A stretch of 64,000 nucleotides of DNA from Sphingopyxis sp. PET50 (GTDB taxonomy: Bacteria > Pseudomonadota > Alphaproteobacteria > Sphingomonadales > Sphingomonadaceae). The notes under the pieces were generated by a model. That model was not told where the DNA came from and ran no database searches. It saw only the letters and a program-made list of their open reading frames with translations. The DNA lies in contig NZ_CP104207.1 of assembly GCF_025244705.1 (NCBI RefSeq), forward strand, positions 2,418,001-2,482,000, read 5' to 3'. This document shows positions 797 through 46,253 of the stretch, in pieces (within the stretch, counting starts at the first letter, position 1; the number at the start of each line of letters is the position of its first letter). The translations under genes and the position numbers were made by a program.

Positions 797-2759
797 GTGT
801 TCGAGCGGGATTACGACAGCGAAAACGACGACCGGCGCGGGCGGATCCGCTTCTGGCTGACCGTTGGCGTGGGCGCGATCCTGACCGGCGTCGTGGTCGC
901 CCTCGTCCTGCTGGTGACCCGCGCCAACGACAATTACGATCGCTCGCTGAGCTCGCAGGCGCACAGCCTGGAGGTCATCTCGCAGACGCGCAGCCTCGAC
1001 GCCGCGCTGGCGCGCGCCGAGGCGGCGCTCGGGCGTTTCGCGGTCGGGCTGCAAAAGGAGGATGGCCGCGTCTATCAGCAGCAATGGGGCGTCGCGCGCC
1101 AATATCTGACGCTGCTGCGCCGCAACGTGCGCGACAATCCGAAGGCGGCCGAACTGGTCAAGCAATTGACCGCCGAGCTCGACCGCCGCGGCCAGCAGCT
1201 CGGCGATGCCGCGCTCAGCGCCAATTACCGCCAGACCGTCGCGGCCATCTCCAAATATAATGCCGCGGGCCATGATGCCGCGCTGGTGCGGATCGACCGG
1301 CTGCTCACCGAGCTGATCCGCAACGAGCGCACCCTGCTCGCCGAACGCAACCGGATCGCGGCGTCCGACCGTGCCAGCCTGAACCAGGCGATCCTGCTCT
1401 TTTCGCTGCTCGGCGCCGAGCGCCGCGATCATCGCGATCGTCGCTACCTTCTCGCTCGTCCGCGCCGAAGGCGAGCGGCGGCTCGCGCGCCGCGAACAGT
1501 TCGCCGAAAGCGAGCGCGCGGCGCAGCTCGAATCGGCGGTCGAGGACCGCACCGCCGAGCTGGCGCGCGCGAACCTCGCGCTGCGCAGCGAGATGGCCGA
1601 GCGCGCGGCGGCCGAGGACCAGCTCCGCCAGGCGCAGAAGATGGAGGCGGTCGGCCAGCTGACCGGCGGCATCGCGCATGATTTCAACAATATGCTCGCG
1701 GTGGTCGTCGGCGGGCTCGAACTCGCGCAGCGCTGGCTCGCCGACGCGCCCGACAAGGCGCAGCGGCATATCCACAATGCGCTCGACGGCGCCAACCGTG
1801 CCGCCGACCTGACCCGCCGCCTGCTCGCCTTTGCGCGGTCCGAACCCGCGCGGCCCGAGATGATGGTCGTCGACGACAGCATCGCCGCCTTCGCCGAGCT
1901 GATCGAACGCACGATCGGCGACCGCATCGCGCTGACGCTCGACCTGCAGGCGCCGGGGCTCGCCTGCTGGCTCGACCGCCAGCAGTTCGAGAACGCGCTG
2001 CTCAACCTCGCGGTCAACGCGCGCGACGCGATGGAGGGGCATGGCTCGCTGACGATCCGCACCTTGCGCGACGAAGAGGAAGAGGCGGCGGCGCTCGCGG
2101 TGCAGGTGATCGACACCGGCTGCGGCATGTCGCCCGAAGTGCTCGAACGCGTCTTCGACCCCTTTTACACGACCAAGCCCGCGGGCCAGGGTACCGGCCT
2201 CGGCATGAGCCAGGTCTTCGCCTTCTGCCGCCAGTCGGAGGGCGAGGTGCAGATCCAGTCGGCCGAAGGCGAAGGCACCCGCGTCGCGATGCTGCTGCCC
2301 GTCGCGCGCCCGCCCGCCGCGATGCCGGCCGACCTCCCCGCCGCCCCGGCCGCCGCCGCGGCGGCGGCGAGCGACGCGCTGCAGATATTGGTGGTCGAGG
2401 ACGATCCGCGCGTCCTGACCGCGACGGTCGAGGCGGTCGAGGAACTGGGCCACCGCGCCGTCGCGTGCGGCGACCCGCGCGAGGCCGCGGCGCTGGTCGA
2501 GGCGCATGGCTTCGACCTGATCCTGTCCGACGTGCTGATGCCCGAACTGACCGGCCCCGAAATGGTCGCCGGACTGAAGCAGCGCTGGCCCGATCTCGCG
2601 GTGCTGTTCGTGACCGGTTTCGCAGGCGACGCGAGCGAGATCGCCAGCTTCGGCGACCATGACGTGCTGCGCAAGCCCTTCACGCTGACCCAGCTCGACC
2701 AGGCGATCCGGCGAAGCACCGAACCGCGCCCGGCGGAAAAGGTCGCGGCGTTCGGGTAG
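797..2759 (+). CDS. Hybrid sensor histidine kinase (interrupted by one inserted base)
   Basis: This is a membrane sensor kinase with a fused receiver domain. From a GTG start: TM1 near residues 15-38, a periplasmic helical sensor segment, TM2 near 199-221, coiled coil, HisKA with phospho-acceptor His in GGIAHDFNN (about residue 294), HATPase with NLAVNARDAM and DTGCGM, and a receiver domain with phospho-acceptor Asp in SDVLMPE (about residue 578). The frame breaks at 1419: observed GCCGAGC. Deleting that A restores GCCGGC and an unbroken TM2 (LLGAGAAIIAIV). Total length is a multiple of three plus one, consistent with one extra base. Signal and partner regulator are unknown. See the GCCGGC finding. 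Confidence 0.85.
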
Positions 2760-2797
2760 AAGCCAGAGCAGCGGCGTTGGGGTGGACACAAGACATT

Positions 2798-2907
2798 CCC
2801 CTCCCTTTTAGGGAGGGGTTAGGGGTGGGTAGCGAGCGCAGCGAGCAAGAGGAAAAGCGCCGCCTTTGGCGGCCACCCACCCCGACCCCTCCCTTGCAGG
2901 GAGGGGA
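2798..2907. repeat. Family A palindromic repeat
   Basis: The outer arms are short G/C palindromes (CCCTCCC...GGGAGGGG) and the interior carries GGGTGGGTAGCGAGCG with a partly complementary GCCACCCACCCCGACC. It sits between the convergent histidine kinase and nucleotidyltransferase genes. It is one of at least eight related copies in the window. Confidence 0.8.
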
Positions 2908-2937
2908 GAAGGAACATCCGCAACCGCCCGAAACAGC

Positions 2938-3786
2938 CTACCGGATCGCCCCGCTCCGCATCAATCGCGGCACCAGCGTCAGCGCCGCGACCAGCGGCCA
3001 TCTCCGTTGCCAGGGCTTGATCTCGATCTTCGTCCCCGCGTGGCGGTTGATCTTCCAGGCAAGGTAATCGATCCCGCCGGCATAGGTCAGGCTCGCCTTC
3101 GCAAGCCGGATGATGCTGAGCGCCTTGCCTTCGACGCGGCGGCGCAGCCAGCCGCCGCCGCGCGCGTTCGCGGGAATGGCGGCGATCGCGGGGGCACCGA
3201 AGCGCCGGTAGCGTTCCGGGTCGGCATCGACCACCGATTGCGCCCGTCCCTTGCGCTCGGCGCGCAGTTCGGCGGCGTAGGTCAGCGAGAAGGCACGGCG
3301 CCACCAGTCGAGGACATCCTCGCCCTCGACACGCCCCGCCGCGGCGAGCAGCGTTGGCGCGGCGCGCGACACGGCCGCAACGGCGCGCTCCGCCGCGGTG
3401 TCGTCGACCGCCCACACCAGCCGCGACGGCTGGGCGAAGCGCGCCCACACCGACACGTTGCGCGTCCCGGCCCCGTTGAGCCGGTCGAAGTCGGCCTCGC
3501 TGAGCACCGCATATTTGGCGATCAGCCCCTGATGCTGGAAGGGAAAGACGTTGGGCGGGATCAGCCGGTTCGCCGCCGCCATCCAGCGCCGGTCATAGGC
3601 GTCGCCATAGTCCGAGACGATCAGGTAGAAATCGAGCATCAGCCCGTCGAGTTCGCTTTCGCGCAGGCAACTGCCGTAAAACAGCACCGCGCGCGCCGAG
3701 CCCGGATAATGCGCCGCGATCGCCGCCGCCATCGCGCGGACGCGCGGATCGACGGGGATGGAAAGTTCGGCGCGGACCAGCGACAC
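2938..3786 (-). CDS. TAM41-like nucleotidyltransferase (possible lipid-phosphate cytidylyltransferase)
   Basis: The protein is about 282 residues with an N-terminal nucleotidyltransferase signature: FYGSCLRESE followed by MLDFYLIV, i.e. the GS-x(n)-D-x-[DY] metal and nucleotide site. The later NRLIPPNVFPF and KYAVLSEADF segments recall the TAM41 family, which makes CDP-diacylglycerol from phosphatidate and CTP. I infer this from motifs only. It lies just downstream of a lipid kinase on the same strand, so phosphorylated ceramide or phosphatidate is a plausible substrate. GTG at 3786 is preferred because GGAGGG stands just upstream; a TTG one codon earlier is possible. No transmembrane segment is obvious. 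Confidence 0.6.
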   Translation of the reverse strand: MSLVRAELSIPVDPRVRAMAAAIAAHYPGSARAVLFYGSCLRESELDGLMLDFYLIVSDYGDAYDRRWMAAANRLIPPNVFPFQHQGLIAKYAVLSEADFDRLNGAGTRNVSVWARFAQPSRLVWAVDDTAAERAVAAVSRAAPTLLAAAGRVEGEDVLDWWRRAFSLTYAAELRAERKGRAQSVVDADPERYRRFGAPAIAAIPANARGGGWLRRRVEGKALSIIRLAKASLTYAGGIDYLAWKINRHAGTKIEIKPWQRRWPLVAALTLVPRLMRSGAIR

Positions 3787-3796
3787 CAAACCCTCC

Positions 3797-3903
3797 GCTT
3801 CCCCGAGCGAAGACGAGGGGCCCGGCCGAGCGAAGTCGAGGCCTTCGACGTCCGATGCTTCTCGCTCCGCTCGAAGGAGTCCCTCGTCTTCGCTCGGGGA
3901 AGC
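3797..3903. repeat. Family C inverted repeat
   Basis: Perfect 23-bp inverted arms (left begins GCTTCCCCGAGCGAAG, right ends CTTCGCTCGGGGAAGC) enclose GAGCGAAGTCGAGG-type sequence. It separates the nucleotidyltransferase from the lipid kinase and could form a strong hairpin in their shared transcript. Confidence 0.85.
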
Positions 3904-3938
3904 GGCTGGGAAATTCGGGCCGAGCCACGGGAATGCCC

Positions 3939-4913
3939 TCAGGCGGCGAGGCGCAGGAAGGGCACCGGCTGGGTCGAGGTCAGCACGATCGGCCTGCCGC
4001 CCGTCGCCTCGAAGATCTCGCCGTCGAGGATGACGTTCGACCGTTTGCCCTCGATGCGGATTTCATCGCCCTGCTCGAAATGCACCCCCGCCAGATGGTG
4101 CTGGCCGAGCGTGCCGCGCCAGGCGCCGCCGAGCATGCGGAACAGCGCACCGACGCTGGTATCGGTCGCGAGCAATTTCATGTGGCCGTTGGTGCCATGC
4201 GCCTCGCTCGTGCGGATGCTGAGCAGCAGTTTCTCGAGCGTCGTGACGATCAGCAGCGAGAATTTGCCCTTGAACTCGCCCTGACGGATCAGCGACACGG
4301 TCATCGGTTCGGGCTTGGGCGGCAGCCGCCCGCCGCCGAGGCCGAGGATCATCGCGAACAGGCCGAGCACCGCCGCCAGGAAATGCGACACGCCGTTCGG
4401 CAGGCCGAGCGGATAGATGCGGTTGCGGCAATAGAGCATGACGTCGGCGAGATAGGCGCCGCCGAGGAACATGCCGAGCACCGGCCGGGCTTCGCCGCCG
4501 CTGTCGAGCGAGATCAGCTGGCGTTCGATGACATGATCCTCGATCCGGCCCGATTCGACCAGTTCGATCACGCGTTCGAGCGCCTTGAGCGGATCGCCCT
4601 CCGCGCCCAGGTCGAGCGCGATCAAATTGGTCTTGCCGTTGGGCAGCACCGCGACCGGCGGCGGCGAGCCGCCGAAATGGCCGCCCGAATACAGCTCGGT
4701 CAGCGCCGCCTGCACCGTGCCGTCGCCGCCGTTGATCGCGACGATGCGCGGGTTGACCATCGCGATGGTGCGAATCGCCTCGCCGATCTGGTCGACGTCC
4801 TCGACCTCGTAATGAAAGATGTCGGGATGCGCGGCGCAATATTCCCGCACGCGCGGCAACAGGGCCCGGTTGCCCGTCGAACGCGGATTGGAAAGGAGCG
4901 CGACGCTGGCCAT
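3939..4913 (-). CDS. Lipid kinase of the diacylglycerol/ceramide kinase superfamily
   Basis: This 324-residue protein has the DAGK catalytic signature: N-terminal LLSNPRSTGN, then AINGGDGTVQAAL (the GGDGT nucleotide-binding loop, about residues 60-65) and LPNGKTN. The C-terminal half has the beta-sandwich pattern of the fold (VILDGEIFE near the end). Known members phosphorylate diacylglycerol, sphingoid bases or ceramide with ATP at the membrane. Its place between spt and the ceramide synthase candidate suggests ceramide, as reported for CpgB of Caulobacter. That assignment is inference, and diacylglycerol cannot be excluded. It lies only 4 bp downstream of a DUF2141 gene, so they are probably cotranscribed. 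Confidence 0.78.
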   Translation of the reverse strand: MASVALLSNPRSTGNRALLPRVREYCAAHPDIFHYEVEDVDQIGEAIRTIAMVNPRIVAINGGDGTVQAALTELYSGGHFGGSPPPVAVLPNGKTNLIALDLGAEGDPLKALERVIELVESGRIEDHVIERQLISLDSGGEARPVLGMFLGGAYLADVMLYCRNRIYPLGLPNGVSHFLAAVLGLFAMILGLGGGRLPPKPEPMTVSLIRQGEFKGKFSLLIVTTLEKLLLSIRTSEAHGTNGHMKLLATDTSVGALFRMLGGAWRGTLGQHHLAGVHFEQGDEIRIEGKRSNVILDGEIFEATGGRPIVLTSTQPVPFLRLAA

Positions 4914-4917
4914 TTCC

Positions 4918-5391
4918 CTACATATATTTCATGCTGATCGAGATCGTCTTCGGCGCATCGCCGACCGCAAAGGCCGTCTTCTTGTAACTCGGCTTGCCGA
5001 GGTTGAAGATGTTGATGCTCGGGTTGTTCGACATGCCGCCGCCGTCCGACGACAGGTCGGTCTTGCCGTTGCCGTTGATGTCGTGGCGCACCGCGATGCC
5101 ATAGCTGCCGGCCGCGGGAAGCGGCACGCACACGGTCATCGAGCCCGCGCGCGCGGGCACTTCGATGCGGTTGATCCAACGGCCCTTGGCGAGCCAATCG
5201 GACGCATTGGCGCGATAGCTCTGGATGCGCAGCTTGCCGCCGCCGCTCTTGATGCCGCTGATCTGGACCAGGGTGGACGGCCCGCTCCTGCATTTCGACA
5301 GGTCGTTCGACAGGACCTGCCCCGATGCCTGGACGGGCATGGAGACCGCCAGCAACATGATGCAGAGAGATGCCGATACAAATTTCGACAT
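4918..5391 (-). CDS. DUF2141 secreted protein
   Basis: The protein is 157 residues with a cleavable signal peptide (hydrophobic core LCIMLLAVSMPVQASG). The mature part has the DUF2141 pattern: small beta-rich domain with VPARAGSMTVCVPLP, YGIAVRHDINGNGKTD and SNNPSINIFN. The family function is not established. It is probably periplasmic. Its neighbours are a lipid kinase (same strand, almost overlapping) and lptF (divergent, 122 bp away), so an envelope-lipid role is a reasonable guess. Confidence 0.75.
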   Translation of the reverse strand: MSKFVSASLCIMLLAVSMPVQASGQVLSNDLSKCRSGPSTLVQISGIKSGGGKLRIQSYRANASDWLAKGRWINRIEVPARAGSMTVCVPLPAAGSYGIAVRHDINGNGKTDLSSDGGGMSNNPSINIFNLGKPSYKKTAFAVGDAPKTISISMKYM

Positions 5392-5512
5392 GACGCATTA
5401 GCTCCCAATGGCTATAGCCATGCCAGCCACGGCCAGCACGGGTCCCTGTCGCCCTTGAATCGGCATATCGGAATCATTTGCGGCCAAATCATGGTGATGG
5501 GGCGACGAAAGC

Positions 5513-6736: not shown

Positions 6737-7833
6737 TGCACCAGCTGCATTTCTTTCCGTCGCGCACCATGGCGCTCTATGTCGGGCGGCTGTTCCTCGT
6801 CCGCACCTTTGCGATCCTGTTCGCGCTGGTGCTGATCCTCCAGACGCTCGACCTGCTCGGCGAAAGCGGCAAGATCCTGGCGGTCGCGGGCAATGGCGAT
6901 GCCGAAGTGTGGCGCTATGTCGGCCTGCGCATCCCGCAGATCGTCGAGACCTTCCTGCCCTTTTCGGTGCTGCTCGGCACGATCCTGACGCTCGCGACGC
7001 TGAACCAGAACAGCGAGGTCATCGCGATGAAGGGCGCCGGCATGTCCGCGCATCAGGTGCTGGCGCCGCTGTTCCTCGCCGCTTTCCTCGTCGCCGGGAT
7101 CAGCTTCGCCTTCAACGAACGCATCGTCGCGCGTTCGACCGCGGCGCTCGCGGCCTGGCAAAAGGTGCAATATGCCAAGGTGCCGGTCGACAATGGCGTG
7201 CGCAGCAACATCTGGGTGCGCGCGGGCGACAATCTGATCAACGCGGCCACGGTTCAGACGGGCGGCCCGTTGGTCACGCTGACCGGGGTCAAGATCTATG
7301 AACGCAGCGGCGGCGTGCTGTCGTCGATCCTGTCAGCCGACAGCGCGCGCGCGGTGGCGGGCGGCTGGGAGCTGACCAATGCCAAGCGGTTCATCCGCCG
7401 TTCGGGCACGCTCCAGCCGCTCGGCACGATCGTCGCGGCGAAGGGCGTCACCCCCGACCAGTTCACGCTGGCACAGGTCAAGGGCGACCAGCTGCCCTTT
7501 CTCCAGCTCAAGAGCGCGATCGACGATCTCGAGGCCGCGGGCTAGCCGGTCGATGCGCTGAAGGGCGTGCTGTGGCACAAGATTTCGGGGCCACTGTCGG
7601 CGATATTGATGCCGCTGCTCGGTGCGGTCGCGGCCTTCGGCCTCGCGCGCTCGGGCAAATTGTTCGTGCGCGCGATCGTCGGCATGGCGCTCGGCTTCGC
7701 TTATTTCGTTGCCGACAATTTCGCGCTCGCGATGGGCGATCTCGGCGCCTACTCGCCGTTTCTGGCGGCATGGGGACCGTTCATCCTCTTCGCGCTGATC
7801 GGCGAGATGATCCTGATACGGACCGAGGAATAG
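6733..7833 (+). CDS. lptG: LptG permease, with an in-frame TAG at 7543
   Basis: LptG is the second permease of LptB2FG. The coding frame from ATG 6733 runs 270 residues to a TAG at 7543-7545 and then continues in the same frame for 96 more codons, encoding the expected final TMs (VLWHKISGPLSAILM, then FAYFVADNFAL). The full span of 366 codons matches normal LptG length. The stop lies in GCTAGC; restoring GCCGGC would change TAG to CGG (Arg) and give AAGRPVDALKG. LptG is essential in most Gram-negatives, so real truncation is unlikely. The lesion is treated as a probable sequencing artefact. Translation is coupled to lptF. Confidence 0.85.
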
Positions 7834-7840
7834 ATACGAC

Positions 7841-7950: not shown

Positions 7951-7957
7951 CCTGTTT

Positions 7958-10455: not shown

Positions 10456-10735
10456 AAAAGGGCGATCATGTCCTTTGCAAACACGCCCGCTGAACAGGCG
10501 GTATCGGGCGGTGGCGGCCGTGAGAAATCCTCCCCGGAACGGGGAGGGGGACCGCCGCCGAAGGCGGTGGTGGAGGGGGCTGTCGGCCTGACGCGCCGTC
10601 CAAGGACGAGAACCCCCTCCGTCAGCCCTACGGGCTGCCACCTCCCCACAAGTGGGGAGGATCGTCTTGTTCCCACCCCGATCCCGACCGGCCCCTTGGG
10701 TTTGCAAAAGACATAATCGCCAAAAAAGGGGGCGC
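10456..10735. repeat. Family B composite repeat, copy 1 (fills the gap 10410-10769)
   Basis: The left end (10463-10515) reads GCGATCATGTCCTTTGCAAAC then CGCCCGCTGAACAGGCGGTAT. The right end (10670-10727) is CACCCCGATCCCGACCGGCC then TTGGGTTTGCAAAAGACATAAT. The TTTGCAAAC/GTTTGCAAA ends are inverted. Between them is a family A-type palindromic block (10531-10665, CTCCCCGGAACGGGGAG ... CCTCCCCACAAGTGGGGAGG). A second copy with the same architecture lies at 22102-22385. No gene is visible in this 360-bp gap. Confidence 0.8.
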
Positions 10736-10769: not shown

Positions 10770-11162
10770 CTATCCCCGAAACGGCGCCACCACCTCGTCC
10801 GTCACCCGCAGCGGCTAGCCGCTCGCCTTGTCGAGCAGCGCCCACACCGTGCGTGCCCGCACGTGGACGCGGCCATCGGCACCGGCGAACTCCATAAAAC
10901 GGTCGAACTTCGCCCCCTGCGGCTTGTCGGCGACCCAGGTCCGCGCGGTCACCGTCGCGCCGGGGCCGAGCGCGCGCAGATAGTCGATCTCGTGCCGCAC
11001 CACGACCCAGATATAGGCGTCCTTGTGCGCCTGCGGCGCCGCGGCGTCCCAATGGCCGGTCGCGGCCTGCTGGATCCACTGCACCCAGACGGCGTTGTTG
11101 ACGTGGCCGAGCTCGTCGATCGTGTCGGGCGTGGCGGTGAGTTGAAGGGTAAACTCTTTCAT
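10770..11162 (-). CDS. 4HBT-family acyl-CoA thioesterase, with an in-frame TAG at 10815-10817
   Basis: This is a hot-dog fold thioesterase: DELGHVNNAVWVQW is the 4-hydroxybenzoyl-CoA thioesterase signature, with the catalytic Asp replaced by Glu in this variant, and YIWVVVRHEIDYLRA follows. A TAG after KASG would end the protein at 115 residues, but the frame continues 14 more codons (PLRVTDEVVAPFRG) to a second stop at 10770, giving the usual length of about 130. The stop lies in GCTAGC, exactly as in lptG; GCCGGC would read Arg. Substrate is unknown, probably a short acyl-CoA. Confidence 0.72.
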
Positions 11163-15444: not shown

Positions 15445-16264
15445 ATGACCGCCATTCGCCTCATCCCGCGCCGCGTCGCCAAGCCCTGGGGCCGCACCGA
15501 CATCGGTGCGCTTTTCGACGCCGGGGGCGAGCGGATCGGCGAAATCTGGTTCGAACTGCCCGCCGGGTCGCCCGAGCCCGCGCTGCTCGTCAAATATCTC
15601 TTCACCTCCGAAGCCCTGTCGGTGCAGGTCCACCCCGACGATGCGCAGGCGCAAGCCATCGGCGCGCGGCAGGGCAAGGAGGAGGCGTGGGTCATCCTCG
15701 ATGCCGACGACGACGCCGTGATCGGCCTCGGCCTCGAACAGCGCGTATCGCCGGAACGGCTGCGCGAGGCCGCGCTCGACGGCAGCATCGAGCAGCTGAT
15801 CGACTGGAAACCCGTCGCGCCCGGCGACCATTTCCACGTCACGCCCGGCACGATCCACGCGATCGGCGGCGGCCTGTCGCTGATCGAGGTGCAGCAATAT
15901 GCCGACATCACCTATCGCCTCTACGACTATGGGCGCCCGCGCGAACTGCACCTGGACGAGGCGATGGGCTGCGCCGAAACGGGCCCCTATCTGACCGCCA
16001 ATCTGCGCGCGCCGATCGCGGTGGGTATCGACCGGCTGGTCAACGGCCCGAAATTCGCCCTGATCGACGCGCATTGCGACGATTTCGCCGCTCTCCCCGA
16101 CCTCGGCGCCCATGGCCCCGTCTGGTTTATCCCGGTCGCGGGACACGGAACCGCGGGCGGCCTAGCCCTGGCAGCCCGGCGAATGCTGGCTGCTCGGCGA
16201 CGCCGCCGATCTTGCCGGCCTCGGCGGCAGCGGCCGCGCGCTGATCGCCTGGGCCACCGCATGA
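15445..16264 (+). CDS. manA: Mannose-6-phosphate isomerase, type I (one inserted base near the 3' end)
   Basis: This zinc enzyme interconverts mannose-6-phosphate and fructose-6-phosphate, feeding GDP-mannose for envelope polysaccharide. Metal ligands are visible: VQVHPDDAQ, GKEEAWVIL and HFHVTPGTIHAIGGG. As written, the frame runs into the next gene and looks like a fusion. Inside GCCTAGC at 16160-16166 one base is extra. Restoring GCCGGC gives GGRPWQPGECWLLGD and a proper stop TGA at 16262 overlapping the next ATG. The length is a multiple of three plus one. The fusion is therefore artefactual. Confidence 0.85.
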
Positions 16265-18882: not shown

Positions 18883-20364
18883 TTATACCGCCGTCCCCTC
18901 CGCCTTCTTGCCCACGCCGCCCCAATCGACATTGCGCGTCATGTACATCACGCCCGCGAGCGCGAAGAACATCAGCACCGACCCGATCAGCAGCGAATAG
19001 GCCTCCAGGTTGAGCAGCACATAGAGCAGCGCGTAAAGCCCGACGAGCATCGCCGCGAGGAAACGCGCGCGCTTCCAGCTCTTGAGCACCGCCGCGCTGT
19101 ACGCCGCGAGCAGCCCGATGATCGCGCCCGCCGCCAGCAGATAGGCAAAGAAGAAACCGATCACCTCGGCAAAGGCGAGCAGCAGCACGAAGAACAGGAC
19201 CAGCGCCACCCCGGTCAGCAGATATTCCGCCGCCGCGACCCGCGCGCCCGCGATGATGTCGAACATCAGGAAGGCGACGAAGGTGAAGGCGATGAACAGG
19301 AAGCCATATTTGATGCTGCGGTCGACCTGGCTGTAAAGGTCGACCGGTTCGATCAGGCTGATCGCGATCGCTTTCGCGACGCCGCCCGCCGCCTCGCCCG
19401 TACCGTCGGCCGCGGCCGCCGCCTCGACGGCGACGGGTTCCAGATAGTCGCGCCCGCCGCCGTACCTGACCTGCGGCGGCGACAGGTCACCGGTCAGTAC
19501 CTGCGCCTGCCCCAGCGCCAGATTGGGGATGGCATAGGTCGCGGTGAAACCGCTTCCCGTCACGCTGCGCGTCGCGGGCAGGAAATCGCCGCCGAAGCTG
19601 GGGTTCGGCCAGCTCGATTTGACCGTCCAGCGCGTATCGACGCCGCGCGGGACCAGCTTGAAATCGCCGAGTCCGCGCACGCCGATCCGGTAATCGACCT
19701 TCATCGGCGCGCCGCCGGTCCAGTCGACGAAGGCGAAGGTCCCCGAATTGCCGGTCGAGAGCAGTCCCTTGCCCGGCTGCAGCGGCACCGCGGTCCCGTT
19801 CACCGCCAGGCTGTTGCCGTCGATGAGCCCGCGCGCGTCGCTGATCCCCAGCCGCACCTCGGCGCGGTCGAGCAGCAAGGCCTCGCGCGCGACACCATAG
19901 CGCGCGATGTCGGCGGGCAGCACGAATTCGGCGCTTCCCGCGATCTGGCTTTCATAGACGACGGTCTCGTAAATCGCCTTCTTGCGCTTTTCGGGCTTGA
20001 TGACGACATCGGCCTTGTTCGCCTGCGGCGAGAGATAGAGGTTGCGGATGGTCTCGACCGTCCGCGTGACGTCGCGGCCATTCTCGGTCACCGTCTGCTG
20101 CTCGGTCGCGCGATAGGGGATGACGATCACCGGCCCGGCGATCGTCTGTTGCCCACCCCAGCCCTGCCCGATCGACGCCTGCGCGGTCTCCGCCTGCTGC
20201 TGCCGGTCCCAGAGCAGGCCATAGACCATCAGCAGCGGCACCATCAGCGCGACGGCAATGAACACCGCGATGATCAGCTTCACCCCCGGCGAGCGTTCGC
20301 CTTTCTCGCGGGACGGGGCCGGACGGGGCGACGGGGTGGGAGGAACGGACGCAGCATCGCTCAT
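18883..20364 (-). CDS. creD: CreD-family inner-membrane protein
   Basis: This 493-residue protein has one N-terminal TM (VKLIIAVFIAVALMVPLLMVYGLL), a large periplasmic domain (IGQGWGGQQTIAGPVIVIPY is the typical CreD opening) and five or so C-terminal TMs (YGFLFIAFTFVAFLMFDI). CreD is known from the E. coli CreBC regulon and affects envelope and beta-lactam responses. No creB/creC partners are visible here. The start at 20364 follows GAGGAGTCCCCC. The C-terminus is short and charged. Confidence 0.88.
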   Translation of the reverse strand: MSDAASVPPTPSPRPAPSREKGERSPGVKLIIAVFIAVALMVPLLMVYGLLWDRQQQAETAQASIGQGWGGQQTIAGPVIVIPYRATEQQTVTENGRDVTRTVETIRNLYLSPQANKADVVIKPEKRKKAIYETVVYESQIAGSAEFVLPADIARYGVAREALLLDRAEVRLGISDARGLIDGNSLAVNGTAVPLQPGKGLLSTGNSGTFAFVDWTGGAPMKVDYRIGVRGLGDFKLVPRGVDTRWTVKSSWPNPSFGGDFLPATRSVTGSGFTATYAIPNLALGQAQVLTGDLSPPQVRYGGGRDYLEPVAVEAAAAADGTGEAAGGVAKAIAISLIEPVDLYSQVDRSIKYGFLFIAFTFVAFLMFDIIAGARVAAAEYLLTGVALVLFFVLLLAFAEVIGFFFAYLLAAGAIIGLLAAYSAAVLKSWKRARFLAAMLVGLYALLYVLLNLEAYSLLIGSVLMFFALAGVMYMTRNVDWGGVGKKAEGTAV

Positions 20365-20499
20365 GGGGGACTCCTCGCTCAATTCGTCGATAGAAATAAA
20401 CGGTTCGTCGATGCCGTCAAGCGACTTGCGATGTGTCGCAGGGATGCTATCGGTGCTGTGGTAGGATCGCAGCGCAGGGGGCAGAAGGTTGCGACAGCC

Positions 20500-22063
20500 A
20501 TGACGGCGCAGCGGACGGACGCATCGGCCGAGCGTCCCTACGACATCTTCATCAGCTACAGCCGCGTCGATGCCGACAAGGCGATGCAGCTGCGCGACCT
20601 GCTGCTCGCGCGCGGCCATCATGTGTTCTTCGATGCCGAGGGCATCGATGCGGGCGCCGAATTTCCCGACGTCATCGACCACGCGGTCAAGGGCGCCAAG
20701 GTCGTGCTCGGATGCTGGACCCCCGCCGCGATCCAGCGCCGCTGGGTCCGCATCGAAAGCCGCATCGGGCTCGACCGCGGCTCGCTCGTCGCCATCGCGC
20801 TCGAAAAGATGGACCTCGAGGCGCTGCCCGCCGAATTCTACAACGTCAACGTCCTCGACATGTCGGGGTTCGACGGCGGCGCGGAGAATGCGGCGTGGCA
20901 GCGCGTCCTCGCCGCGATCGACCGCCGTCTCAGGAAGACCGGCGCCGCGGCCACCGCGGACGACATCCGCCCCGCCGGTCCGCAGAAGCGCCGCCTCTCG
21001 CCGCTCGCGCTCGGCGGCGCGGCGGCGCTCGCGGTCGCGGCGATCGGCGGCGGCGGCTGGTATTATGCGAACAGCGCCCCCGCCTTCGACGAGGCCGCGG
21101 TCGCCGCCGGCTTCGACAAGACGGTCAGGACCACCGAACCGGTGATGGCCAACGCGCTCGTCAGCGCCCTGAACGACGCCGAGACCACGAACAACGGCAA
21201 GATCTTCTGGGCGCTGGCGCAGCTGATCGCGGTCGAAAAGTCGCCGAACGCCGAAGAACTGCAGCGCTTCGAGGCCGCGGTCGCGAAATTTCTCGGCAGC
21301 CCCTGCCATTGCGTCGTCGTCGAGGGCGCGCCCTTCACCATCGTCTCGACCTGGACGCTCACCGCCTATGGCGTGATGGACCGCACGCCCCCGGCGCCGG
21401 TGGTCGAGGCGCTGCTTGCCGCGCAGAATCGCGAAGGCTGGTGGTCGAGCGCGATGGACGCCGCCGACCGCCCCGACAATGCCGCGACCTATATCACCGC
21501 GCTGTCGGTCATCGCGCTGCGCGACATCGACCCGGTGCTGAAGGGCGACCCGGCGTTGCAGGCGAAGGTCAGGGCGGCGCGCGCCCGCGCGGTCGGATGG
21601 CTCAAGAAACGGCGCCCGCGCCCCGGGGTCAACTGGTCGGACTATCCCGACAACAGCCTGCGCACCGAAGCGCCGTCGGTATCGGCGATGGCGACGGTCG
21701 CGCTGCTGCCCGAGGTCGGCGAGGCCGAGGCGAAGGAGATCGCCGAAATCTATGTCGCGGGCATCGACAGGCTGTCGCCGGTCGATCAGAATATCTCGAA
21801 CGACGTCAACGTTATCCGTGCCGGCGGCGACACCTATGTCGACACCTATCGCCACGTCCCCTTCGGCTGGGAGGTCTATGCGCTGGGCAAGGCCTGGCCG
21901 CTGCTCGGCGGCGAGCCGGCCGGCAAAGGCCGCGGGTCTGCTGAACCAGGCCCGGACCGTCAGCCTGTCCGACCCCAAGCTCGCGCGGCAGGACTGGATG
22001 CTGGCCGAACAATTCCTCGGCCTGCGCGGCGCGCGCGATGCGCTGATGGCGGCGAAGCGATAG
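20500..22063 (+). CDS. TIR-domain membrane protein with C-terminal alpha/alpha-toroid-like domain (one inserted base)
   Basis: Residues 8-140 are a TIR domain: YDIFISYSRVDADKAM, HHVFFDAEGIDAG and RRWVRIESRIGLD, where the Glu of W-x-x-x-E matches the catalytic Glu of NAD-cleaving TIRs. A single TM (LGGAAALAVAAIGGGGWYYA) follows at about 168-190. The roughly 320 residues after it contain NREGWWSSAMDAADRPDNAATYITA and further Trp-rich helical repeats that resemble squalene-cyclase-like toroids (a weak, pattern-only guess). The frame breaks near 21925, where AAA should be AA, directly after two overlapping GCCGGC sites. Repaired, it ends LGLRGARDALMAAKR. Function is unknown; signalling or defence is possible. 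Confidence 0.7.
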
Positions 22064-22101
22064 CCTCGTGACGAATGAGGCGAAGGTCCGCCCGAATCCC
22101 G

Positions 22102-22385
22102 CCGCAAAAAGAAGGCGATTATGTCCTTTGCAAACACGCCCGGTGAACAGGCGGTATTGGGCGGGAGCGGACATTGGAATAGATCAGGCCCTCCCCTTCA
22201 GGGGAGGGCAGCGAGACTTACGAACTTGTTCGTTAGTCGCAGCGGGTGGGGTCCATCGGCCTCGCGCAAGGCCGATGGACCCCACCCCAACCCCTCCCCT
22301 GAAGGGGAGGGGCTTCATGTCCGCCTTCCACCCCGATCCCGACAGGCCGCTTGGGTTTGCAAAAGACATAATCGCCAAAAAGAAA
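22102..22385. repeat. Family B composite repeat, copy 2 (fills the gap 22064-22430)
   Basis: The left end GCGATTATGTCCTTTGCAAAC matches copy 1 and the right end is CACCCCGATCCCGACAGGCC then TTGGGTTTGCAAAAGACATAAT. Nested inside at 22189-22314 is a full family A element nearly identical to those at 12600 and 13674. Copy 1 carries a different inner block, so the outer shell and the insert vary independently. No gene is seen here. Confidence 0.85.
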
Positions 22386-31832: not shown

Positions 31833-32552
31833 ATGGCTAGCGCGCGCATTCCCGACCCCGACGCGCCACCGCCGCTGGGCCTGCTGTGGCGCGAGATCGG
31901 GTTGCTCGCGCGCGCCTTGTGGGGCCGCGTCCGCCCCCTGCCGCCCGAGCCCAATCCCGACAGCGAGCATCCGCCGGTGATGGTGCTGCCCGGTTTCCTG
32001 TCGGGCGACTGGGCGACCAAGGCGCTGCGCGCCGACCTGCGCCGCGCGGGTTTCCGCTGCTATGCCTGGGGCCTCGGTTTCAACCGCGGCGCGACCCCCG
32101 ACATCATCGAGCGGATCGACGGGCGCGTGCAATGGATCATCGACCGCACCGGCCATGCGCCCGCGCTGGTCGGCTGGAGCCTCGGCGGCATCTATGCCCG
32201 CGAATATGCCAAGCATCATCCCGGCAAGGTCGCGCGCGTCGTCACCCTGGGCTCGCCCTTTTCGGGCAGCCGCCGCGCCAACCGCGCCTGGCGCCTCTAT
32301 CACCTGATCGCGCGCCACCCGGTCGACAATCCGCCGATCGACTTCCATCCCGCCCCGCGCCCCGAAATGCCGACCTTCGCGCTGTGGTCGAAGCACGACG
32401 GGGTCGTCGCGATCAACAGCGCCCGCGGCGCCCCGCACGAAAGCGACCGCCAGATCGAGGTCGACTGCGGCCATATGGGCTTCGCCTATGCCCCGACTTC
32501 GGTCGCGGCGATCGTCAAGGCGCTGCAGGAAGAGGTTACGGCGGCCGACTAG
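31833..32552 (+). CDS. Alpha/beta-hydrolase (triacylglycerol lipase-like)
   Basis: This 239-residue alpha/beta-hydrolase has VMVLPGFLSGDW (oxyanion-hole strand), the nucleophile elbow LVGWSLGGIYAREYA (Ser about residue 114), the acidic residue region SKHDGVVAI and the final His in DCGHMGFAY. It is cytoplasmic by sequence; no signal is seen. The substrate is probably an ester or lipid. Confidence 0.82.
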   Translation: MASARIPDPDAPPPLGLLWREIGLLARALWGRVRPLPPEPNPDSEHPPVMVLPGFLSGDWATKALRADLRRAGFRCYAWGLGFNRGATPDIIERIDGRVQWIIDRTGHAPALVGWSLGGIYAREYAKHHPGKVARVVTLGSPFSGSRRANRAWRLYHLIARHPVDNPPIDFHPAPRPEMPTFALWSKHDGVVAINSARGAPHESDRQIEVDCGHMGFAYAPTSVAAIVKALQEEVTAAD

Positions 32553-36127: not shown

Positions 36128-36280
36128 CTCCCCTCCCGCAGGCGGGAGGGGCAACGAGGCTTGCCAGCTTGCTGGCTAGCCGCAGTGGGGTGGGCTGGCA
36201 ACGGCGCGTCAAAGGCCCACCCCGCTGCGACTAACGAACAAGTTCGTAAGTCTCGCTCCCCTCCCGCCTGCGGGAGGGGG
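36128..36280. repeat. Family A palindromic repeat
   Basis: Arms CCCCTCCCGCAGGCGGGAGG and CCCCTCCCGCCTGCGGGAGG, with inner GCCGCAGTGGGGTGGGC and GCCCACCCCGCTGCGAC. The spacer has GCTTGCCAGCTTGCTGGC on one side and ACGAACAAGTTCGTAAG on the other. Confidence 0.85.
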
Positions 36281-39168: not shown

Positions 39169-39192
39169 ATTGGATCAGAGCAGGAGGGCGAG

Positions 39193-40009
39193 GTGACGAC
39201 CTTCAACGATTTGATACGCAAGGCCGGACTCAATCCAAAAGAGGTCATTCTTGTTCGACACAGCGGCACCGGTGCAACGGGCCTCAAGCCATATGATCTA
39301 TGGCTTGAGCGTAGCGATCGTTTTGATCGCTACCAGTCGACCCAGGAGGCAGGGCGGCCCATATTTCGAAAAGCGAAATATTGGGCCAGCTTTGTTTCAG
39401 GTCCGGAAAACACGACAATCTTCGTCAGCTTGTACGGGGCATCGCTTGGCGACGCGAGTGACGTCGACTGGGACTGTCCTCTCAGCGGATTGAAACCCGG
39501 GCAAGATAAGAACAAACCATATGATTTCTATTTGTTGGACAAGCGGGAGGAGTTGTCTCGCTTGATAGCCAAACTCCAAATCCGTTGGTCCGAAAGCGAG
39601 CGGTCGTGGGTTCAATATGCGCATAAAAACGAGAAAATCGTCGAGCTTGGCGCAATGGGAGTGTCGCTAGACGTACCTGAACCGACATCGGAGGAAGGAC
39701 GGCGAGTATGGCGCACTCAACTCGCAATAGAACGCTCCGGAACGATCGGGAAACGGGCAAAGCTGAAAAATGCTGAATTAAACGGCGGCCACCTATGCTG
39801 CGACGCATGTCAGTTCAAACATCCCGACCCGTCGATGTTCGACGCCCATCATATCAGCCCCCTGATGGCCGAGCGAGCGACGATCCAATCTCGATGACCT
39901 CCTGATATTATGCCCAACATGCCATCGCCGCGCTCACCGAAGCGAGAACCGGCTGCTCCCTTTCGATGTGTTCGAACTGCGGACATGGGTCATCGCAGGG
40001 AGGCCATAG
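39193..40009 (+). CDS. HNH endonuclease, two-domain (one inserted base)
   Basis: This is an AT-richer gene with a strong AGGAGG before a GTG start. The N-terminal 115 residues (NDLIRKAGLNPKEVILVRHS, then YQSTQEAGRPIFRKAKYWASF) are a domain found in front of GIY-YIG or HNH nucleases. The C-terminal HNH has LCCDACQFKHPD and DAHHISPLMAG. The frame breaks at 39872 in GCCGAGC; restoring GCCGGC yields GERRSNLDDLLILCPTCHRR and a stop at 40007, a complete zinc-HNH finger. It is probably an acquired defence or homing-type nuclease. Confidence 0.75.
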
Positions 40010-40043
40010 TCGCGCGTTCCATTTATCCGCTACAGCCGCCGCT

Positions 40044-40947
40044 ATGCGCCCCGATTCGCCCTCGCCGACCATCCCCTTCCTGATCGCCTGCGCCGAGCAT
40101 CGCGACCTTTTCGATGATGGACGTGCTGATGAAGGGGCTGTCGATCGAACTCGGCGCGTATAACGCCGTCCTCTGGCGCACCGGGGTCGGCACGCTCGTC
40201 AGCGGCGCCGTCTATTTCTCGCTCCGTGCAGCCTGGCCCGACCGCGCGACGATGACCATTCACGCCTGGCGCTCGCTGTTCGTCGCGGCGATGGCGCTGT
40301 GCTTCTTCTGGGCGCTCGCGCGGCTGCCGATGGCGGAGGCGATCGCCCTCGCCTTTGTCGCGCCGCTGATGGCGCTCTACATGGCGGCGACCTTCCTCGG
40401 CGAGAAGATCGGCCCGCGCTCGGTCGCCGCCTCGCTGCTCGGCCTCGCCGGCGTGATCATCATCGTCGCGGGCAAGCTCGGCGCCAGCGGCTACCGGCCC
40501 GATGCGCTGTGGGCGGTCGGCGCGGTGTTCCTGTCGGCGGTCTTCTACGCCTACAACCTCATCCTCGCGCGGCGGCAGGCGAAGATGGCGGAGCCGCTCG
40601 AAATCGCCTTTTTCCAGAATTTCTTCGTCGCCGCGATCCTCGCGCTCGGTGCGCCATGGTTTGCGACGGTGCCGGACGGCGGCCATGCCCCGCACATCCT
40701 CGGCGCCGCAATCCTCGCGACCACCTCGCTGCTGCTGCTGAGCTGGGCCTATGCCCGCGCCGAGACGCAGATCCTCGCGACCACCGAATATACCGGCTTC
40801 CTGTGGGCGATGCTGTTCGGCTGGCTCTTCTTCGGCGAGCCGGTGGCGCTGCCGACGATCGCCGGCGCGGTCCTCATCGTCGCCGCCTGCCTGATCGTCG
40901 CGCGCAAGGTCCCGCACGACGATCCGGTGGAGCCGGCGGCAGCTTAA
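40044..40947 (+). CDS. EamA-family (DMT) transporter (one inserted base)
   Basis: This is a ten-TM drug/metabolite exporter of two EamA halves, about 300 residues. The first residues MRPDSPSPTIPFLIACA are out of frame with the rest because of GCCGAGC at 40092-40098; with GCCGGC the join reads IACAGIATFSMMDVLMKGLS. Later features are WALARLPMAEAIALAFVAPLMALYMA and TTEYTGFLWAMLFGWLFFGEP. The exported substrate is unknown. Confidence 0.8.
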
Positions 40948-40955
40948 AAATAGTC

Positions 40956-41096: not shown

Positions 41097-41103
41097 CAAA
41101 TAT

Positions 41104-42036
41104 TCACACAGCCGCCCGCGAAAGCCGGTCGTTGATGGCCGCGCCCAACCCCTCGTCCGGGATCGCCGCCACCGCAATCCGTGCCTTCGCGCTCGCCGCC
41201 CCCGCATGCAGCGCGTCGAACAGCCGCGCCGCCGCCTCGGTCAGGTCGCCCGCCGCGCTCAACTGATAATCGCCCGCGACCTTGCCGAAGCCGATGCCGA
41301 ACTCGTCATCCCCAAAATCCTTCGCCCTCAGCCGCACCGGCTTGCCCGGCGCATAATGGCTCGCCAGCATCCCCGGCGCGACGATCTCCGCCCCTGCAAC
41401 CCCGGACACGGGCAGCCCCGACGCCTCGCCCAGCATCGCCGCCGTCACCGGCCCCGGCCGCAGCACCTCGACCGCGCCGTCCCTGACCCGCGCGATCGTC
41501 GATTCGACCCCCGCCGCCGTCGGCCCGTCGTCGATCACCAGCGCGATCCGGCCGTCCAGCGTCGCAAGCACATGCTCCGCCTTCGTCGGGCTCACCCCGC
41601 CGCTGGCATTGGCGCTCGGCGCCGCGAGCGGGGCGCCGGTTTCGGCGAGCAGCGCCTGCATCGCGCGATGCCCCGGCACCCGAAGCGCGATCGTATCGAG
41701 TCCCGCCGTCGCGACGCTCGCCACAGGGCAGTCACCGGTACGCGGTACCACCAGAGTCAGCGGCCCCGGCCAGAACCGCGCCGCCAACAGACGCTCGACC
41801 GTGCCGAACACCCCCAGCATCTCCGCCGCGGCCAGATCGGGCACATGCACGATCAGCGGGTTGAAATCGGGCCGCCCCTTCGCGGCGTAGATTCGCGCGA
41901 CCGCCGCCGCGTTACGCGCGTCGGCCGCAAGGCCATAGACCGTCTCGGTCGGCACCGCGACCGGCAGCCCCTCCCCGACCAGCCCCCCGGCGCGCGCGAT
42001 TGCCTCCGCGCCAAATGGGCGGATATCGGTCGTCAT
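41104..42036 (-). CDS. L-threonylcarbamoyladenylate synthase (Sua5/YrdC family)
   Basis: This 310-residue Sua5-type enzyme makes threonylcarbamoyl-AMP for the t6A37 modification of ANN-decoding tRNAs. The YrdC core is VPTETVYGLAADARN, IYAAKGRPDFNPLIVHV, ARFWPGPLTLVV, LRVPGHRAMQALL and APSANASGGVSPT. The extra C-terminal Sua5 domain starts near GMLASHYAPGKPVRLRA. Start 42036 has GAGGG eight bases upstream; an in-frame ATG at 42057 is possible. Confidence 0.92.
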   Translation of the reverse strand: MTTDIRPFGAEAIARAGGLVGEGLPVAVPTETVYGLAADARNAAAVARIYAAKGRPDFNPLIVHVPDLAAAEMLGVFGTVERLLAARFWPGPLTLVVPRTGDCPVASVATAGLDTIALRVPGHRAMQALLAETGAPLAAPSANASGGVSPTKAEHVLATLDGRIALVIDDGPTAAGVESTIARVRDGAVEVLRPGPVTAAMLGEASGLPVSGVAGAEIVAPGMLASHYAPGKPVRLRAKDFGDDEFGIGFGKVAGDYQLSAAGDLTEAAARLFDALHAGAASAKARIAVAAIPDEGLGAAINDRLSRAAV

Positions 42037-42110
42037 GCGCGTTTGACCCTCGGCCATGCCGCGCTATAGCGCCGCCACCTGTGGAATCATCCCTAAAAGG
42101 GGAGCCGAAG

Positions 42111-43845
42111 ATGACCTATACGCCGCCGACCACCGAGCAATTGTTCGTCCTCAACCACATCGCGCGGGTCGACGCGATGGCGCAGCACGACCGCTTCGCC
42201 GACGCGACCCCCGACATGGTCGAGGCGATCGTCACCGGCATCGGCGAGTTCGCGGCGGAGGTCTATGCTCCGCTCAACCGCGTCGGCGACACGAACAACC
42301 CGAAGTGGCAGGACGGCAAGGTCACCATGCCCCCGGGGTTCAGGGAAGCGTATCGGCAGTTCGTCGAGGCGGGCTGGGGCAGCATCGACGGCCCCGTCGA
42401 ATACGGCGGCCAAGGCCTGCCCTTCACCCTCGCGACCGTGGTGATCGAGGCGCTGGGCAGCGCCGACATGGGTTTCACCCTCTGCAACATCCTCACCCCC
42501 GGCGCGATCCACGCGCTGATGGCCTATGGCACCGAGGAGCAGCGGCAGACCTGGCTTCCCAAGCTCGTTTCGGGCGAATGGAACGGCACGATGAACCTGA
42601 CCGAGCCGGGCGCGGGCAGCGACGTCGGCGCGCTCCGCTCGACCGCCGAAAAGGTCACCGACGGCCCGAACGCGGGCCTCTACAGGATCAGGGGACAGAA
42701 GATCTTCATCACCTTCGGCGAGCACGACCTCACCGACAATATCGTTCATCTCGTCCTCGCCCGCACGCCGGGCGCGCCCGAGGGGACGCGCGGCATCTCG
42801 CTCTTTCTCGTCCCCAAATACCGCCTCGACGCCGCCGGCAATCCGACGATTTCGAACGGCGTCCATTGCGCGTCCATAGAACATAAGCTCGGCATCCACG
42901 GCTCGCCGACCGCGGTGATGGTCTATGGCGAGGGCGAGGATTGCCTCGGCGAGATCGTCGGCGACGAGATGGGCGGGATGCGCGCGATGTTCGTGATGAT
43001 GAACAACGCGCGCCTGATGGTCGGCTGCCAGGGCGTCCAGATCGCCGAACGCGCGACGCAGCAGGCGCAAGCCTACGCCGCCGAGCGTATCCAGTCATCG
43101 CTCGCGGGCTCGCCCGACCGCACGCCCGTGACCATCGACCAGCACCCCGACGTGCGCCGCATGCTGTGGCGGATGCGCGCGCAGACCGAGGCGGCGCGCG
43201 CGCTCATCTATTACGCCGCCGCCCAGACCGATTTCGGCAAATTGGGCGACGAGGCCGCCGCGATGCGCGCCGAAATCCTGATCCCGCTGGCGAAGGCGCA
43301 CGCGACCGACATCGGCTGCGAGGTCGCCAGCCTCGGCGTGCAGGTGCATGGCGGCATGGGCTTCATCGAGGAAACCGGCGCCGCGCAGCATTATCGCGAC
43401 GCGCGCATCGCGCCGATCTACGAAGGCACCAACGGCATCCAGGCGGCCGACCTCGTCGGGCGCAAGCTCGGCATGGCCGGCGGCGACCTGGTTCGCGGCC
43501 TCATCGACGATATCGCGCACGGCGCCGCCGATTTCCCCGAATTGCGGCAACTCGCCGATGCGTGCCGCGCGGTCACCGACTGGATGGCGAACGCTCCCAT
43601 CGGCGAACGCCTCGCGGGCAGCTATCCCTATCTGACGATGCTGTCGACCGCGACCTGCGGCTGGCTGATGGCGCTCCAGCACCGGGCCGCGCGCGCGGCG
43701 CTCGACGAAAGCCAGGGCGATGCCGCCTTCCTCGAAGCGAAGATCGCCTCGACGCGTTTCTACCTGCAGCAGATCGTCCCTGCGGCGACGGGGCTGGCGC
43801 CGTCGGCGCTGGCCGAGCGACGCGGCGCTTCCGGCGTTCGGCTGA
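42111..43845 (+). CDS. Acyl-CoA dehydrogenase (one inserted base near the 3' end)
   Basis: This FAD enzyme, about 577 residues after repair, is of the large acyl-CoA dehydrogenase class with a C-terminal extension. Motifs: MNLTEPGAGSDVGALRSTAEKV, GEHDLTDNIVHLVLAR, EHKLGIHGSPTAVM, and QVHGGMGFIEETGAAQHYRDARI with YEGTNGIQAADLVGRKL. The frame breaks at 43816 in GCCGAGC; GCCGGC restores SALAGDAALPAFG and a TGA at 43843. As written, it reads on to 43928 with an unrelated tail. Chain-length preference is unknown. Confidence 0.88.
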
Positions 43846-43930
43846 CCCCGGTTTCCGCGGCGTTTCGGGCCGTTTTCGCGCGCCCGATATCCCGCGTGAT
43901 TAACGCGATGATAACCATCGGACCTTAGGC

Positions 43931-46253
43931 ATGGGGGGTAACCGCTGGAGACGTGCGCGCGTGCCACCCGTAGTGAACAGGATGATCGTCAGCTGGCGCA
44001 CCCTCGGGCTCGCCCTGCTGCTCAGCATCCTCGTCGGCGTTTCGGGCGCGGGCGACCTGCCCGACCGGCTCATCGGCTCCGCGACGAGCCGGCTCGGCGA
44101 CCGGCCGGTGTCGGGCGATATCGTCATCGTCGCGCTCGACGACCGCACCCTCGGCCAGACCCCCGGCGGCAGTTTTTCGATGACCCAATATGCCGAGGTC
44201 GTCAGCGCGATCGACAAGGTCGGCGCCAAGCGCCTGTTCCTCGATTTCTATTTCGACCGCCGCGAATCGGACCCCGATTTCTCGCGCCTGACCCAGGCGG
44301 TGCGCAAGATGGGCAACCGGGCGGTGCTCGCGGTCGCGACCAAGTCGATGCCCGGCACCGACCGCAGCCGCTCGATCTTCCCCAATCCGGCGTTCGGCGA
44401 CAAGGCGCAGCTCGCCAGCATCGCCTGGGATTTCGAATTCTGGCAGGTGTGGAACGTGCCGATCACCTATGTCGCCGACGGCCGCAAGCTGCCGAGCTTT
44501 GCCTCGCTGCTCGGCGGCAAGACGTCGGCGGAGCCCAGGAGCTTCCGGCTCGATTTTTCGTACAACACCAACAGCATCCCCATTTACGGCGCCGCCGACC
44601 TGCTCGCCGGGCGCGTCGGAGCGGCGCAGCTCAAGGGCAAGGACGTCATCTTCGCGCCCACCGCATCGACCTTTCAGGATGCCCATTATCTCCCCGGCCA
44701 CGACCTCGTTCCCGGCGCCTATATCCACCTGATCGGCGGCGAGACGCTGAAGCGGGGCAATCCGGTCGACATCGGCTGGCTGCCGGCGCTGGTCGCGACG
44801 ATGATCGCGCTCTTCGCCGCGCTGCTGCCGCGTTTCCAGCGCTGGTACGCGCCGCGCGGCGCTCGCCGCGGTCGCGGTTCTGGTGATCGTCAAGGTGCTG
44901 CTCGCCACCCTGCTCGTCACCGTGTCGATCGGTGCCGCGCTGTTCCTGATCGCCGCGATCAGCGCCAATGTCAGCCGCAAGCGCCGCCGCTTCTCCGCCC
45001 AGCGCGAAAATCCGGTGTCGGGCCTGCCCAATTTCGAAGCCCTGCGCTCGCAGCCCGCGTTCGGCAGCGCGACCGTCATCGCCGCCAAGCTCGTCAATTT
45101 CGAGGATCTCGCCGCCTTCCTGCCCGGCGAGGGCAGCCAGCAGCTCGTCGACCAGGTCGCGCGCCGCCTGACCCTCGCCTGCCACGGCACCCAGCTCCAC
45201 CACGATCTCGACGGCACCTTCGCCTGGCTCGTCCCCTATTATCAGCACAGCCAGATCGAAGGCCATCTCGCCGGCCTCGCCGCCTTGTTCAACGCCCCGC
45301 TGACGATCGGCGAACTGCGCGTCGACGTCGCGATCGCCTTCGGGGTCAACGACGAGTTTGAAGGATCGAACGCCCAGCGCCTCGCCGCGGCGCTCGTCGC
45401 CGCCGAACGCGCGATCCGCACCCGCGCGCTGTGGACCAAATATTCGCCGCGGCAAAAGGAGGACGCCGGCTGGCAGCTTTCCTTCCACTCGCAGCTCGAG
45501 GACGCGCTCACCAGCGGCGACATCTGGGTCGCCTTCCAGCCGCAGTACGACATCCGGACCCACGCGCTCGTCGGGGTCGAGGCGCTGGCGCGCTGGACGC
45601 ATCCGACGCGCGGGCCGATCCCGCCCGACGAATTCATCGTCCAGGCGGAAAAGAGCCAGGATATCTATCGTCTCACCCTGTTCGTGATGGATCATGCGAT
45701 CCGGTCCGCGACGCAGCTGCGCGAGCGCGGGCTCGACATCCATATGTCGGTCAACCTGTCGGCGACCTTGCTCGACCATGCCGATCTGGTCGGCACGATC
45801 CGCGTCATGCTGACCGCGCACCATCTGCCGCCCGAAATGCTGACGATCGAGATCACCGAAACGGCGCAGATCGAAAACAGCCGCCAGGCGCGCCAGACGC
45901 TCGCGCAACTCCGCCGCGCGGGCATCCGCCTGTCGATCGACGACTATGGCACCGGCCAGTCGAACCTCGAATATCTGACCGAAATCGAGGCCGACGAGAT
46001 CAAGATCGACAAGCGATTCGTGATGACCATGCGCGATTCGCAACGCAACTTCGAAGTCGTCAAATCGACCATCGACCTCGCCCACCGCCTGGGCGCGGTC
46101 GCGGTCGCCGAAGGGATCGAGGATGCCCCGACAATGGCCCTGCTCGAACAGCTCGGTTGCGACGTCGGCCAAGGTTATCACCTTGGAAAACCGCAGCTAT
46201 TCTCCGAACTCACCGCCACGCTCGCCCCCACCCACCACAGCCGCACGGCATAA
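43931..46253 (+). CDS. CHASE2 - degenerate GGDEF - EAL c-di-GMP phosphodiesterase (one inserted base)
   Basis: The protein is about 773 residues. It contains an N-terminal TM, an extracytoplasmic CHASE2 sensor (DIVIVALDDRTLGQTP, AKRLFLDFYFD), then three TMs near residues 285-345. A GGDEF-like domain follows with HDLDG where GGDEF should be, so it is inactive. The EAL domain is complete: GVEALARW, MSVNLSA, ITETAQIE, DDYGTGQSNLEYL, IKIDKRFV, AEGIED and GYHLGKP, predicting hydrolysis of c-di-GMP. The lesion is at 44855 (GCCGCGC for GCCGGC); repair restores YAPAALAAVAVLVIVKVLL through a TM. An internal ATG at 43982 is an alternative start. Confidence 0.82.

Follow-up and report, generated by a model that had tools for sequence, protein, structure and literature searches.

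Broken reading frames at GCCGGC beside a NaeI-type restriction-modification system in the Sphingopyxis sp. PET50 assembly: probable consensus errors at a predicted methylated word

Broken frames and a restriction-modification system in the window

We analyzed a 64,000-nucleotide stretch (the window; positions 2418001-2482000) of the single-contig chromosome of Sphingopyxis sp. PET50, which is 3,796,965 bases (3.8 Mb) long. The window carries a gene for a C5-cytosine DNA methyltransferase and, overlapping its end, a gene for a NaeI-like restriction endonuclease, together with a series of genes whose reading frames are broken at words resembling GCCGGC (Table 1). We consider it probable, at about 88%, that these breaks are consensus errors in an unpolished assembly of long reads, made at GCCGGC sites predicted to be methylated by the NaeI-type restriction-modification system. 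A sequence-only reading of the window had listed nine broken frames. All nine are present with their motifs where it had placed them, and a tenth, the +2 frameshift at 31836, had been missed; the intact GCCGGC sites that it had listed are also there, within a few bases.

To locate the lesions independently of that list, which was not used, genes of relatives were predicted by codon usage, their proteins were aligned to the DNA with a frameshift-tolerant aligner, and the events were clustered. Within the window, 18 clusters were formed by at least two proteins. Five of these were backed by at least five proteins and correspond to the four +1 shifts and the +2 shift for which agreeing genomes are given in Table 1; the remaining 13 (2-4 proteins each, mostly at gene ends) were left uncounted. 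At the in-frame TAG at 7541, all nine relatives shown have Arg codons, one of them within an exact GCCGGC, and the same holds for the stop at 10814 in all five relatives shown, again with one exact GCCGGC. For the frameshift at 43812, four of the eight relatives shown have exactly GCCGGC. Three of the six copies of GCTAGC in the window are demonstrable as lesions. The frames of manA (16160), the HNH gene (39868) and the TIR gene (21915-27) had no site-spanning homologue among the fetched relatives. The tails beyond 16160 and 39868 we take to be ManA-like and HNH-like. The ORF (open reading frame) upstream in the HNH gene had no Pfam match, and by codon score its new frame is merely less bad (-9.7 vs -28.8); as the new frame also scores negatively, the case there rests on the look of the tail.

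NaeI cuts GCCGGC, and its partner enzyme methylates the same word. The catalytic motif of NaeI comprises acidic and D-x-K residues. In the PET50 nuclease a VDVK is aligned with the VDCK of NaeI (structure 1ev7), and an Asp nine residues earlier is common to both; the alignment extends over 245 of 297 residues (E=3.2e-28), and the score against PF09126 is 186.1 bits, where the curated cut-off is 25. The window methyltransferase is the one PF00145 match found in the whole genome. These matches bear out the earlier proposal that the window encodes a NaeI-like system with a C5 methyltransferase. Of 80 genus genomes searched, a NaeI-type nuclease was found in PET50 itself and in none of the 79 other congeners. 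The methyltransferase has its closest relatives in Sphingomonas soli and an uncultured Novosphingobium, and at 35 loci with related methyltransferases a NaeI-like match lay within the 6-kb flank in 20, one of these being a 65-residue piece.

Table 1. Lesions and restriction-modification genes of the window, with three frameshifts elsewhere on the chromosome. Names in quotation marks are those of the sequence-only reading.
Feature	Position	Strand	Basis
+1 frameshift at GCCGAGC, CHASE3-domain (sensor kinase-like) gene	1415..1421	+	5 genomes agree on 1418; CHASE3 E=1.2e-7
In-frame TAG (GCTAGC) in lptG	7541..7546	+	LptF_LptG E=1.7e-51 in window ORF; relative's intact protein is TIGR04408 LptG
In-frame TAG (GCTAGC) in short gene, "thioesterase"	10814..10819	-	stop spanned by alignment to a 130-residue relative (90%)
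+1 frameshift at GCCTAGC in "manA"	16160..16166	+	tail shifts to other frame; codon score flips
Frameshift beside double GCCGGC, TIR-domain gene; exact added base not pinned down	21915..21927	+	TIR_2 E=8e-18; frame change; codon score flips
+2 frameshift at GCTAGC near gene start, weak alpha/beta-hydrolase match	31836..31841	+	5 genomes agree at 31837; nucleotide context; relative's family
+1 frameshift at GCCGAGC, "HNH"-type gene	39868..39874	+	tail in other frame; codon score less clear
+1 frameshift at GCCGAGC, "EamA" gene	40092..40098	+	8 genomes agree on 40095
+1 frameshift at GCCGAGC, acyl-CoA dehydrogenase-like gene	43812..43818	+	8 genomes agree on 43815; relative's family
+1 frameshift at GCCGCGC, "CHASE2-EAL" gene	44851..44857	+	7 genomes place the shift at 44843-44855
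C5-cytosine DNA methyltransferase	51712..52668	+	PF00145 E=6.4e-72
NaeI-like restriction endonuclease, overlaps methyltransferase gene end	52665..53558	+	PF09126 E=1.1e-54
Vsr-type mismatch endonuclease	53568..53975	+	PF03852 E=4.9e-30
Frameshifts at GANTC sites of relatives	chromosome 2576910, 2635632, 2737846		

On the minus strand, window positions 18883-22137 hold a 1084-residue ORF, the final part of which is CreD (PF06123) and the first part of which is antisense to the TIR gene; the relatives' proteins have 494-498 residues. Dispersed repeats lie at 2771-2934, 10500-10695 and 36231-36280 (about 160, 190 and 50 bases) and have many copies in the genome or in congeners.

Frameshifts and words along the chromosome

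The search was extended to chromosome samples of 464 kb and, fetched after the pattern was known, a further 400 kb, 864 kb in total. Events were called strong when identity was at least 70% on both flanks; this is a selection rule, and flank identity is hence no evidence against decay. All strong events, false-looking ones included, were retained in the frameshift and k-mer counts. The words GCCGAGC and GCCTAGC and their reverse complements, termed product words here, were counted within 10 bases of each frameshift. Over the 864 kb, for which genes of two congeners were used, 73 frameshifts were found across the 283 kb of coding DNA open to comparison, as against 8 in each of two control congeners over about 184 kb, the control runs having used genes of one relative (0.26 vs 0.04 per kb). 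Product words occur at 30 of the 73 frameshifts vs 2.63% of random covered positions (p ~4e-28). In the controls, neither of which has a NaeI match and which were compared whatever their sequencing platforms, they occur at 0/8 and 1/8 frameshifts. Counting stops as well, the controls gave 9 and 10 strong events in 184 kb each, and runs on PET50 with genes of a single relative gave 41 over 172 kb with the genes of G020 and 26 over 133 kb with those of G024.

The 464 kb yielded 47 strong events in 196 kb covered (44 frameshifts and 3 stops; 38 are +1). GCCGAGC was the leading 7-mer, at 15 of the 44 frameshifts vs 0.91 expected (p=6.6e-15), and with the window removed it was still found at 12 of 37 (0.76 expected; Bonferroni 5e-8), with GCCTAGC at 4 of 37 vs 0.03 expected. 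Among the 29 new frameshifts of the further 400 kb, 23 of them +1, GCCTAGC was found at six (0.04 expected; Bonferroni 1e-8), AGCCGGC, with an extra A directly before an intact site, at five, and product words at 11; the six leading words there did not include GCCGAGC. The covered coding DNA of the 464 kb holds 208 intact GCCGGC vs 28 lesions classed as derived from it, so that roughly one site in eight is altered. The product list behind these 28 and a wider product pattern, which fits 40 of the 73 frameshifts and also 11.7% of random positions, were both drawn up after the sequences had been read.

The parent word was sought with 19 lesions chosen for these products, which gave 27 event-relative pairs and 63 codons; two of the 27 pairs lacked downstream agreement and were retained. 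Every hexamer was substituted at the lesions and scored. Of 4096 hexamers, GCCGGC ranked first on both measures, with a substitution score of 248 and 53 of 63 codons identical; GCAGGC followed (233 and 51). Thus, the word named in the sequence-only reading was recovered without being assumed.

Genome-wide counts of three words had also been put forward as markers, with mixed outcome. GCCGAGC is present at 1.89 times its reversed word, above the 1.33-1.84 of 15 congeners. GCTAGC failed as a marker, since its 145 copies show no enrichment vs 130-375 in 24 congeners, and depletion of GCCGGC was ambiguous (0.74 of the reversed word vs 0.47-1.33 in 15 congeners). Unlike GCTAGC, GCCTAGC does serve as a marker: it has 314 copies, where 15 congeners have 92-181; per Mb this is 83 vs 25-49 (from rounded sizes), a 1.7- to 3.4-fold difference. 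Several other approaches were set aside. Nucleotide-gap enrichment per hexamer of the relatives in the window was noisy, with GCCGGC absent from the 25 words printed, and gave way to the protein-level method. In two-frame tblastn listings shadow ORFs obscured nearly everything, the CHASE2-EAL gene being the one clear case. Ungapped replacements at conserved GCCGGC were mostly ordinary codon changes, with zero GCTAGC among 131 sites, and retention of GCCGGC into PET50 (43/165 and 37/145, vs 75/222 and 77/228 between controls) was a weak signal.

A second word may be involved. Three frameshifts fall at GANTC sites of relatives, and each of them reads GATCTC on one strand or the other (0.82 expected); the genome encodes CcrM (match to 6pbd, E=1.5e-149). 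This is only suggestive of CcrM methylation at GANTC as a second source of errors. A further methyltransferase gene (PF01555; adenine or N4-cytosine), at chromosome 1900379-1901102, itself appears as two matches in different frames.

Essential genes and the origin of the lesions

For the naming of broken genes, 10 of the 47 strong events were set aside by a hand-made list before proteins were chosen; 30 proteins were named, then 10 more from the further 400 kb, where 25 of the 29 events either lay in proteins with a reference or were deliberately skipped. The gene for translation initiation factor IF-2 (chromosome 2687598) is broken mid-gene at a GCCTAGC, at codon 449 of 848 of a relative. The IF-2 model, run against the entire genome, gave two adjoining matches (model positions 4-187 and 187-586) in different frames, which meet at the lesion. 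No second full IF-2 gene was found in this search, and six other matches were weak, none reaching the cut-off. IF-2 is indispensable to a cell. Because the sole full IF-2 gene found is split, which would not be survivable in a living cell, we regard the lesions as errors of the assembly. The gene rpsK (ribosomal protein S11; chromosome 2587536), with one match in the genome, is broken near its start. Judged by their relatives, further broken genes encode LptG, LeuC (twice), IlvE (twice), glycerol-3-phosphate acyltransferase, succinate-CoA ligase beta and adenosylhomocysteinase; around the lesions in the twice-hit IlvE and LeuC genes, 22-25 of 25 flanking residues are kept.

These observations, together with the absence of the lesion pattern from the two control congeners, support the original proposal of miscalls rather than real pseudogenes. 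In the mechanism that we favor, the window C5 methyltransferase would mark GCCGGC and the methyl group would disturb the read signal. The consensus would then adopt a wrong spelling at about one GCCGGC in eight, mostly with one added base and mainly as GCCGAGC or GCCTAGC, while the living strain would carry intact genes.

Several observations weigh against this explanation. Even under the wide pattern, 33 of the 73 frameshifts match no GCCGGC product; some of these lie at gene starts, homopolymers or GANTC. At 26 of 30 lesions the added base falls within the 3' half of the site when read along the gene (26:4, p=6e-5), compared with 18:12 by genomic strand; at a palindrome, no such bias is expected of an error that ignores strand. 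No cause was visible in counts of single flanking bases at these 30 lesions (counts only, with no fitted model); a longer, codon-imposed context may be its source. Among nine genomes from other genera of the order, two surpass PET50 in GCCTAGC per Mb. Finally, the shifted frame has a GTG ahead of the rpsK break that could start S11 with an altered N-terminus; this weakens that case, so that the essential-gene argument rests on IF-2.

The best-surviving alternative is that a base caller or polisher mishandled a GC-rich palindrome as such, with methylation not involved. Ordinary errors do seem to be present, as a few lesions are in homopolymers. However, the leading k-mers (the best 5-8 words per list) are products of GCCGGC and not words of the same composition such as CGGCCG, GGCGCC, CCGCGG or GCGCGC. 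The confinement of the NaeI-type nuclease to PET50 among the genus genomes, two others of which were examined for lesions, and the three lesions at GANTC, which is likely to be methylated as well, also argue for methylation, and we regard a purely sequence-driven error as unlikely.

Real mutations at the same word would be expected if the NaeI-like nuclease occasionally cut the chromosome and error-prone end joining left extra bases at GCCGGC. The nuclease gene is open and matches its family, most lesions are insertions at its expected site, and the bias in gene direction is easier to imagine for a cellular process. Against this stand the split IF-2 gene and the broken rpsK and lptG, the GCTAGC stops, which are substitutions, the lesions at GANTC sites, and the well-kept flanks of the twice-hit IlvE and LeuC genes. 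We therefore consider end-joining scars very improbable. That these are ordinary pseudogenes of a decaying genome, as a completeness of 87% might suggest, is scarcely credible given the single motif, the dominance of +1 events (38/47 and 23/29 in the two samples) and the breakage of indispensable genes.

If the lesions are consensus errors at methylated GCCGGC, some 800 excess gene breaks in the genome (extrapolated, with the covered DNA taken as typical) are not biology, and the low completeness score (87.04%, where 21 of 24 listed congeners are at 99-100%) is artefactual at least in part. Wherever such assemblies are used, pseudogene counts, pangenomes and essential-gene surveys would carry a bias at the target sites of a strain's own restriction-modification systems. 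Conversely, the error scars would give a cheap guess at methyltransferase specificity. We lean slightly towards the broader view that scars in unpolished long-read assemblies form a methylome that can be read against relatives without raw signal, and that allows target sites to be assigned to encoded methyltransferases (GCCGGC to the NaeI-type enzyme, possibly GANTC to CcrM).

Comparison with known systems

Errors centered on modified motifs have been described before. In Listeria, the portion of the Modpolish paper considered here ties such errors to lineage-specific modification (Chiou 2023, PMC10687267), with one motif per lineage (GCAGC or GCTGG), as in PET50; one lineage has a methyltransferase-encoding defence system that is absent from the good genomes. 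In the same portion mismatches dominate, whereas insertions dominate in PET50, a difference that counts against our explanation. In a Klebsiella benchmark, Dcm-site errors made up about 70% of consensus errors with the then current callers, in the part of the study drawn on here (Wick 2019, PMC6591954). The likeness is that consensus errors cluster at the word of a C5 methyltransferase. The word there is CCWGG; here it is GCCGGC, with mostly +1 insertions, as judged from the assembly and its relatives.

The restriction-modification locus resembles that of NaeI (structures 1ev7 and 1iaw) in that a NaeI-family nuclease gene directly follows a C5 methyltransferase gene. It differs in that the PET50 nuclease aligns with NaeI over part of its length, as given above, and its GCCGGC specificity is predicted from the family. 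A GCCGGC methylase is described in Neisseria gonorrhoeae, in the part of that report used here (PMC12871193). Among 15 papers listed on GCCGGC and nanopore sequencing, none had a title about such errors. Thus, the kind of artefact is already known, and the word GCCGGC and the insertion-rich spectrum look new within the literature searched.

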